DNA of 47,102 bases, taken from NCBI GenBank assembly GCA_016930415.1, contig JAFGGS010000010.1, positions 1 to 47,102 on the forward strand. The letters run 5' to 3'. This document shows, piece after piece, positions 41,414 to 44,375 of this stretch. The stretch comes from Candidatus Woesearchaeota archaeon. Its GTDB lineage: Archaea; Nanobdellota; Nanobdellia; Woesearchaeales; SM23-78. A program made the position numbers and the translations under genes. The notes below the pieces were generated by a model. The model saw nothing but the letters and a program-made list of their open reading frames with translations, ran no database searches and was not told where the DNA came from. How positions within the stretch are numbered: position 1 is the stretch's first letter; every line of letters starts with the position of its first letter.

Positions 41414-41518
41414 GTTTTCAATCCTTTATGATCGTGATGATGAAAAAAAATTTCGATGCGGGGGAAGGCAACAAAAATCCCTTCATGATTTTTGAGCCTT
41501 TCCTCCTCGTTCGCTTAC

Positions 41519-41602
41519 TGCGGGAGAAGGGGTTCGAACCCTCGTAGGCACTAAGCCACTACCCCCTCAAGGTAGCCCGTTTGACCACTCCGGCACCCCC
41601 GC
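41519..41602 (-). tRNA. tRNA-Leu (anticodon GAG)
   Basis: 84 nt. The acceptor GCGGGGG pairs with CTCCCGC (one G-U) and the discriminator is A. The anticodon stem CTACC/GGTAG closes the loop TTGAGGG, giving anticodon GAG for CUC/CUU codons. A long variable arm, as in all tRNA-Leu, precedes the T arm GAGGG-TTCGAAC-CCCTT. No CCA is encoded and no intron is seen. It lies between rpoD and rpl18e, a common place for a tRNA-Leu in archaea. Confidence 0.97.
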
Positions 41603-43044: not shown

Positions 43045-43701
43045 TCACTCTTCTGACTCTTCCTCTGTCGCTGCATCGACCGCTCCCTTCTCCTCGATGC
43101 TCTCAATCGCATCCTGTGAGAAGGCAGGAAGGGCTTCTTCTGAATCCTTCTTTTTCTTCTTCTCCTTCCCCTTATTATCGTCCTTGTCTACGATAATCCT
43201 TTCAGGGTGGTCTTCCCTTGCAAGGGCTGACTTTGGGATGAACTCCACAAGGCTCTCGTCCTTCAAGGTCACGAAGTAATTCGGGAAGGTTATCTTCTTC
43301 TTGCCAACTATGACGTGCCCGTGTGTTATGAACTGCCTTGCCTGCTTCATGGTCCTGGCCAGTCCCTTCTTCACTATGAACGTCTGGAGCCTTCGATCCA
43401 TCACGTCCTTGAGCGTGAGCCCTAGTACCTTGTCCATGCTGTCAGTCGCCTGGATGAGACCCATGGAGACGAGCCTGTCAATGAGCTGCTTCTCCTCGAG
43501 CTTAGACTGCTCATCCACTCGGCTTGCGAGGCTCTTGGCCTGGTTCTTCAAATCCCTAAGAAGGGTTTCCATCTTCCAGATGTCCTTCTTGTTCTTCAGG
43601 CCGTACTCTGAGATGATCTTCTTCTCTTCGAGTATCCTCGCGCTCTGCCATGGATGGCTTGGCGTGTCGTACTTCTTCCTGATTTTTCCTGGATCTCCCA
43701 T
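43045..43701 (-). CDS. rps4: ribosomal protein S4 (uS4)
   Basis: 218 residues. GDPGKIRKKYDTPSHPWQSARI is the archaeal/eukaryal (S9e-type) start. The S4 RNA-binding domain at about 100-160 reads VMDRRLQTFIVKKGLARTMKQARQFITHGHVIVGKKKI. The C-terminus is extended by a Lys-rich and then Glu-rich tail (KEKKKKKDSEE...ATEEESEE). The start codon is ATG 43699-43701, inside a conspicuous fold described separately. S4 is a primary 16S binder and in bacteria represses its own operon. Confidence 0.95.
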   Translation of the reverse strand: MGDPGKIRKKYDTPSHPWQSARILEEKKIISEYGLKNKKDIWKMETLLRDLKNQAKSLASRVDEQSKLEEKQLIDRLVSMGLIQATDSMDKVLGLTLKDVMDRRLQTFIVKKGLARTMKQARQFITHGHVIVGKKKITFPNYFVTLKDESLVEFIPKSALAREDHPERIIVDKDDNKGKEKKKKKDSEEALPAFSQDAIESIEEKGAVDAATEEESEE

Positions 43702-43800
43702 AAATTTTCACCGATTAAACTAGTGAGCGTGATATGAAACAGTTTCCAAAAATTTATGGGACTCAAAACCAAGGGTTTTGTCGTCCCAAATTTTTTCACC
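43696..43800 (-). promoter_or_regulatory. three-segment switch-like leader before rps4
   Basis: On the coding strand three segments occur. Segment 1 (43784-43800) is GGTGAAAAAATTTGGGA. Segment 2 (43748-43761) is TCCCATAAATTTTT. Segment 3 (43696-43712), which contains the S4 ribosome-binding site and ATG, is GGTGAAAATTTATGGGA. Segments 1 and 3 are near copies and segment 2 is complementary to both: 13 perfect base pairs with segment 3, or with segment 1 in a hairpin of GGGAC/GTCCC, AAAACC/GGTTTT and AAAAATTT/AAATTTTT. The two pairings exclude each other, so segment 2 could either hide the S4 start or be held by the decoy. An A/T box near 43808-43818 might give an internal promoter. Regulation is inferred. 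Confidence 0.6.
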
Positions 43801-43835
43801 AATGCTTTAATAATAATCCCAAAAAGATAATATGA

Positions 43836-44375
43836 TCATTTCCTTCCAGCTGGAGCCTTCTTCTTGACTCCCAGGCTTCCCTTGCCCTTGTTGACCCTGA
43901 AATTAGACTTGGTCTTCTGTCCCCTGACTGGCTGACCCCACTGGTGCCTGAAGCCCTTGTAGCTCTTGGTCTTCTTGAGCCTCTTCAAGTCCATCTCTTG
44001 GGTGAAGTCTAGAGTAGAAGTTATCAGGTGGAGGTCTTCTCCGGTCTCGACGTCTTTTCGCCTGTTGAGCATCCACAAGGGTATGCCCGCGTTCCTTGGC
44101 TTCTGGACTAGGTTCTCTATCATCGCGACCTCTTTCTCGTTCAGGTAACCCGCCTTCTTGGTCGTGGGTATGCCTGCCTTCTTGAGGACCGCGTTTGCGA
44201 ACATGACGCTCACGCCCTTGATCTTGGTGAGTGCGTAGAGGACGTGCTTCTCTCCCTTGACGTCGTTGTTCAAGATCCTGACCAGGTGCCTTAGCTCTGG
44301 GGCTGGCGCCTTCTGGACTGGCGCTGCAACTGGAGCCGGAGCCTTTACGTCCTTGTGTTCCTTATGTTCTGCCAT
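43836..44375 (-). CDS. rps13: ribosomal protein S13 (uS13)
   Basis: 179 residues. The core has LVRILNNDVKGEKHVLYALTKIKGVSVMFANAVLKKAG, residues about 33-70, and VRGQKTKSNFRVNKGKGSLGVKKKA at the C-terminus. An Ala/Pro/Lys-rich N-terminal extension of about 30 residues precedes it. I use ATG 44373-44375 (AEHKEHKD); an in-frame ATG three codons upstream is equally possible. It is the first gene of the operon and has a structured leader of about 90 nt. Confidence 0.94.
   Translation of the reverse strand: MAEHKEHKDVKAPAPVAAPVQKAPAPELRHLVRILNNDVKGEKHVLYALTKIKGVSVMFANAVLKKAGIPTTKKAGYLNEKEVAMIENLVQKPRNAGIPLWMLNRRKDVETGEDLHLITSTLDFTQEMDLKRLKKTKSYKGFRHQWGQPVRGQKTKSNFRVNKGKGSLGVKKKAPAGRK

Follow-up and report, generated by a model that had tools for sequence, protein, structure and literature searches.

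In Escherichia coli, the alpha operon, a ribosomal protein operon that includes rps4, is under translational control by S4, which binds a pseudoknot in the leader at rpsM, as a review describes (PMC10931766). Archaeal L7Ae/kink-turn leaders (PMC5539422, PMC6298567) and L1 leaders (PMC10931766) are likewise 5' structures controlling ribosomal protein translation. Termination-reinitiation at ATGA or TGATG is also established in archaea (Huber et al. 2019, PMC6728339); there the upstream open reading frame (ORF) ends on the downstream start and contains the ribosome-binding site. In the B12 riboswitch leaders of Mycobacterium tuberculosis, a structured leader is combined with a short upstream ORF (uORF) in AUGA overlap, and the main gene depends on reinitiation from this coupled uORF (PMC11260477). 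Here we analyse the rps4 leader, located between rps13 and rps4 in a 47,102-nt stretch of a Candidatus Woesearchaeota archaeon (contig JAFGGS010000010.1, positions 1 to 47,102, in its entirety "the window"). With moderate confidence, we read this leader as belonging to a multi-copy cis element of Woesearchaeales-type archaea that has apparently not been described before and would act as a coupled-uORF, two-pairing leader.

Whereas in the archaeal termination-reinitiation cases both partners are genes, the upstream partner here is a uORF of about 14-23 codons that copies the start of the gene and lies within a hairpin core that is conserved and recurs upstream of many genes. The M. tuberculosis leaders differ in phylum and in structure, have a known ligand and hold no copy of the gene's start. 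Unlike the alpha operon leader, the hairpins described here stand at rps4 and before 65 other gene families, and no pseudoknot is needed; unlike the L7Ae and L1 leaders, they have a core without a tandem G-A kink-turn and are not bound to one ribosomal protein. An L7Ae kink-turn (a 3-nt bulge plus tandem sheared G-A pairs) was considered and rejected, as the internal loop of the core, AA/A, is flanked by C-G pairs and has no G-A on the bulged strand. We found no described translational leader family for DPANN archaea in Rfam or in our literature searches: no Rfam family scored above its gathering threshold (the best reached 22.3 bits, 53 being needed), no paper was found on riboswitches in Woesearchaeota or start-codon hairpins in DPANN archaea, and the literature on palindromic repeats yielded nothing useful.

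Anatomy and distribution of the element

The element consists of a copy of the gene's start region (S'), a conserved hairpin core, an anti-start segment (antiS) and the real start region (S), in that order. We read 140 distinct copies, all from metagenome-assembled genomes, with gene starts assigned by a script and in part manually; 96 of them have this layout at a gene start, before 66 gene families, and there the gene begins most often 20 nt past the hairpin. The genes concerned include those for winged-helix (wHTH) proteins, rpoN, L15e, S6e, S13, L29, L40e, L10 and prefoldin, as well as NAC, V-ATPase, enolase, MetK and the proteasome. In the lower stem, the 5' arm repeats the gene start (e.g. 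ATGATA with ATGATA, ATGGCA with ATGGCA), and it follows the gene down to synonymous differences: rpoN copies have S' ATGATA or ATGATT according to the codon used by the gene, and winged-helix genes have ATGGGG with ATGGGG in one case and ATGGGA with ATGGGA in others. Counting one copy per gene family, S' has the second codon of its gene in 35 of 51 families, against a permuted mean of 9.0 and a maximum of 17 in 20,000 permutations. The duplex of antiS (the 3' arm and what follows it) with S was similarly stronger than expected, at -9.15 compared with -4.88 +/- 0.29 after permutation (56 families). Both mutually exclusive pairings are possible in 67 of 85 copies, the gene AUG is paired in 69 of 85, and the loop between antiS and S usually contains the ribosome-binding site of the gene.

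In nine readable loci with unlike start codons in S' and S, antiS matches the real one; the window is among these, with UUG in S' and CAU in antiS. The nine also include genes that start at UUG (L052, L081, L128, L135, L187), with CAA as anti-start, and three loci (L051 in G205, L077 in G204 and L149 in G456) where rps4 and an RNase H-like gene apparently start at AUC and the anti-start is GAU.

The core, ACAACAAAAA..loop..TTTTTGAG, shows strong covariation. In an alignment of 86 strong copies (A3), 91% of pairs are standard, both sides have changed at 13 of the 14 pairs, and doubly changed cells number 149 as opposed to 40 after shuffling; the covariation score is 0.333, compared with 0.107 in shuffles, and sliding the partners abolishes the signal. 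A first covariance model, built from seven hairpins that were mainly rps4 copies, was matched in 127 of the 353 genomes searched from the order, several of which carry 5-15 copies; with the class included, the core is present in many genomes at 1 to 15 copies each. A second, built from the 86 strong copies, was applied to 371 genomes of the phylum and found no copies beyond the class. It is this result, together with reversed patterns, that specificity rests on: a search with the exact form of the motif common to relatives' rps4 leaders (GGGACRACAAAA..TTTTGAGYCC) found rps4 leaders in further families and, in G004, a copy preceding a winged-helix gene, while the reversed-pattern control gave zero matches in all genomes searched. 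One match in a member of the Lambdaproteobacteria (L037) falls within a coding sequence and is taken as a chance match.

At rps4 the element was found in 12 genomes of seven families, a recurrence that is partly ascertainment, since a model derived largely from rps4 copies places too many of them among its best matches; the comparisons of S' with S and of reading frames (below) are independent of that. Three of the six other genomes of the genus have a similar rps4 hairpin (G006, G004, G002) and three have none, while G038, from another family, has one too. Conservation in close relatives, the test proposed for the original prediction, therefore gave a mixed answer, the three-part element being absent at rps4 from three of the seven genomes of the genus, with its logic kept at rps4 in the 12 genomes of seven families and before the 65 further gene families. 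In the element-free genomes the native rps4 start lies at the distance from the rps13 stop that the upstream copy, not the real start, has elsewhere; sequence divergence between the four occupied and three empty sites is too large for exact junctions to be drawn. The rps4 leader of G002 (L030) has two tandem core units and a separate hairpin joining them.

In most copies, a uORF also opens at S' and extends across antiS, with its stop codon at the gene start (ATGA, TAATG, TGATG) or a few nucleotides upstream. A Shine-Dalgarno match of at least 4 nt precedes S' in 42 of 80 copies, against a background of 10%. In 49 of 72 copies the uORF ends no more than 7 nt from the gene start, whereas the other two frames give 11 and 13, and direct stop-start overlaps number 29 in the uORF's own frame versus 2 and 3 in the others. 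Such a frame bias is what coupled translation would predict. At one locus (L060, in G099), three tandem 71-nt units each have a uORF (MKILASGD...) whose stop overlaps the next start, and they precede a phosphoesterase-like gene that begins with the same residues.

The rps4 leader in the window

The original prediction had described a decoy at this locus: a near copy of the rps4 ribosome-binding site and start upstream of the gene, and between them a segment complementary to both, forming 13 perfect base pairs with the real start, ATG included, or a hairpin of about 19 bp with the copy. This geometry is all present (Table 1). The two sites have 71 nt between them (88 nt start to start), antiS pairs with S over the full 13 bp, and the hairpin has 6+6+7 = 19 bp. 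When the gap was shuffled with its dinucleotides preserved, a 13-nt perfect complement to the rps4 start region occurred in only 2 of 2000 cases, and the 116-nt leader is predicted to fold at -30.2 kcal/mol in the hairpin state and at -23.3 kcal/mol in the forced anti-start state. The proposed two-state logic stands insofar as both exclusive pairings are available, one of them freeing the start. The "decoy", on the other hand, is better read as the putative start codon of a small uORF, with an antiS that could close either start.

A pairing overlooked earlier is that of TTTCATA with the rps4 ATG in the minimum-energy fold, where GGTGA is also partly paired; the real start is therefore predicted to be partly closed in both states. 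The window uORF has its own initiation site (GGTGA-N6-TTG) and would encode LGRQNPWF. Its stop lies inside the hairpin, 62 nt upstream of rps4, so the stop does not abut the gene start as it does in most of the family. Thus, the window copy is a derived one and would work, if at all, by exclusive pairings and not by stop-start coupling.

Table 1. Features of the rps4 leader and of the second core copy in the window (model R1 E-values are from a shortened calibration)
Feature	Position	Strand	Basis or remark
rps4 (uS4), 218 aa	43045..43701	-	Pfam S4 domain, E 2e-13
S, rps4 start region AAAATTTATGGGA	43696..43708	-	ATG = 43699-43701
rps4 real ribosome-binding site/start segment GGTGAAAATTTATGGGA	43696-43712	-	sequence
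rps4 ribosome-binding site GGTGA	43708..43712	-	sequence
rps13-rps4 gap (all leader parts on this strand)	43702-43835	-	
Second possible anti-start TTTCATA	43733..43739	-	paired to TATGGGA in minimum-energy fold
antiS TCCCATAAATTTT	43749..43761	-	pairs with S' or rps4 start
Hairpin S'-core-antiS (state A), 19 bp	43749..43794	-	fold and covariance model match
Covariance model R1 match	43756-43790	-	E 1.1e-8
Conserved core GAC-GA-CAAAACC-CTT-GGTTTTG-A-GTC	43760..43785	-	alignment A3, 86 copies
uORF TTG GGA CGA CAA AAC CCT TGG TTT TGA, 8 codons	43763..43789	-	start = S'
Upstream near copy of rps4 ribosome-binding site/start GGTGAAAAAATTTGGGA	43784-43800	-	sequence
Shine-Dalgarno-like GGTGA of uORF (first taken as decoy site)	43796..43800	-	sequence
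rps13 (uS13), upstream operon gene	43836..44375	-	sequence and gene order; ends 134 nt before rps4
Second, weaker core copy, 3' of tRNA-Leu	41467..41498	+	R1 E 0.0185; S' GCGGGGGAAGG
tRNA-Leu, 3' end GCGGGAGAAGG	41519-41602	-	3' end copied by S' of second core copy

Alternative explanations and the origin of the element

The position before rps4, the recurrence there across families and the regulation of the bacterial alpha operon by S4 through its leader at rpsM (review PMC10931766) would all fit a leader with S4 as its ligand, as the original prediction had suggested by analogy. Nevertheless, the same core and layout precede 65 other gene families, winged-helix genes, rpoN, L15e and S6e among them, instead of being restricted to S4 and its operon, and the element is missing at rps4 in genomes of the same genus; S4 is therefore an improbable ligand. 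A leader peptide sensed by the ribosome, as in attenuation, might be suspected from the many uORFs that read MxQQK, and relatives' equivalents of the window ORF read MGQQK.... Yet the residues past K track the stem rather than a peptide, the window peptide does not conform, and identical core nucleotides are framed differently between copies (L063 MDNKKPS, L071 VDNKKRS, L101 MTNKNF), so a conserved peptide was rejected and we regard this explanation as very improbable. An A-rich/U-rich stem with an ordinary folding energy could also be a chance hairpin or an intrinsic terminator between rps13 and rps4, but this is contradicted by the covariation, the start mimicry, the frame statistics and the lack of reversed-pattern matches in the listed genomes, and can hardly be credited.

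A candidate partner that was rejected is a 65-aa winged-helix protein (MGQQEVYDFL...) as shared regulator: it is encoded in 12 of 20 high-copy versus 6 of 20 zero-copy genomes, so co-occurrence does not support it and it is not a required partner. The gene for this protein itself has the element in several genomes (L045 in G000, L036 in G004, L215-L226), and the protein is about 90% identical within the genus, compared with about 66% for S4.

Translation cannot account for the 44 of 140 copies found elsewhere. Several of them adjoin the 3' ends of tRNA genes read from the opposite strand (L089, L139, L141, L142), about ten precede TATA-like sequences and some form arrays (L065, L120, L126, L152); judged by eye, these too keep the S'-antiS-S order. 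The second core copy in the window is of this kind, since its S' copies the end of a tRNA-Leu gene. Repetitive extragenic palindromes (REP/BIME) and miniature inverted-repeat transposable elements (MITEs) are short imperfect palindromes, multi-copy and intergenic, that also form tandem arrays. The present element resembles them in all these respects; it differs in that its arms derive from the host site and hence vary by site, and the core always has the copied signal on one and the same side. Given the copies away from gene starts, we regard a palindromic DNA element that spreads as a serious account of the origin. Under this explanation a REP/MITE-like mobile element lands beside a functional signal and thereby creates a direct (S') and an inverted (antiS) copy of it; insertions would persist only if they spare the start codon, TATA box or tRNA end, and the layout reflects tolerance, not regulation. 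We give this a little under an even chance, and it is compatible with the coupled-uORF reading, one concerning origin and the other present use. Besides the copies at tRNA ends and TATA boxes, and possibly one within a tRNA-Arg gene, it is favoured by tandem units closing with the last S (L060, L087, L163, L175, L089), a 42-nt direct repeat of the ribosome-binding site and start in L054, the element-free rps4 loci whose native start stands where others have S', and the scatter of gains and losses on the S4 tree. Y1 transposase genes occur in 12 of 20 high-copy versus 4 of 20 zero-copy genomes, an association that is only suggestive, as the core lies near just 2 of 16 sampled Y1 genes. Against mobility, the copies have no extended sequence in common beyond core and site, antiS tracks the real start even where S' has diverged from S, the uORF frame is maintained, and the consensus core has no match in viral contigs.

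Several individual loci may be recorded here. In G006 (L121, 501-526) the consensus core lies within the D-loop of an apparent tRNA-Arg(CCU) gene, seemingly with other insertions; ARAGORN found no tRNA at this locus. Units or arrays of CACTGGACA and core stand directly upstream of a promoter in L065 (G002), L120 (G006) and L152 (G016), and in two genomes precede a BRO-N-like gene. Two Y1 transposase genes (L207 in G116, L209 in G117) differ in coding sequence and share a leader with a reverse-oriented core between TTTTCGTTGC and GCAACGAAAA.

Proposed mechanism and its meaning

The pairing alternatives exist by sequence and track each gene, and the uORF is in register with it: with antiS on S', the uORF start would be closed and the gene start free, and with antiS on S the reverse. 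We infer that antiS on S shuts the gene to direct initiation, and that ribosomes starting at S' would strip antiS away, stop at the gene start and re-initiate, tying translation of the gene to that of the uORF. Stabilisation of the core hairpin by a factor, an ion or temperature might then move antiS to S' and uncouple the gene.

Several observations weigh against a coupled leader. The element at rps4 is scattered, requiring at least eight changes on an S4 tree of 32 genomes, and such gain and loss implies that it is dispensable there. The folding energy of the window leader alone is ordinary (z = -1.25), so its significance rests on the relatives, and the window copy has a truncated uORF and a longer spacer. 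In L163, antiS matches S' and not S. The copies off start codons have the same core and S'-antiS-S layout, and a role in translation alone does not account for them; the support as a whole comes from the sequences of assembled metagenomes.

Even so, the family probably controls or couples the translation of dozens of essential genes. We advance tentatively a combined account, in which a palindromic element spreading in DPANN archaea retains the adjacent signal in one direct and one inverted copy wherever it lands, so that its landing is harmless, and thereby turns gene starts into coupled-uORF switches with a shared core. If the spreading-element reading is true, a mobile element builds a genome-wide translational regulon, and if it is truly mobile, a selfish element writes regulatory logic from the host's own signals. 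The element recurs before essential genes (ribosomal proteins, RNA polymerase subunit N, prefoldin, NAC, V-ATPase, proteasome) with each copy fitted to its own gene, even genes starting at UUG or AUC coming with a matching anti-start, and it predicts a testable common mechanism for the expression of essential genes in uncultivated archaea.
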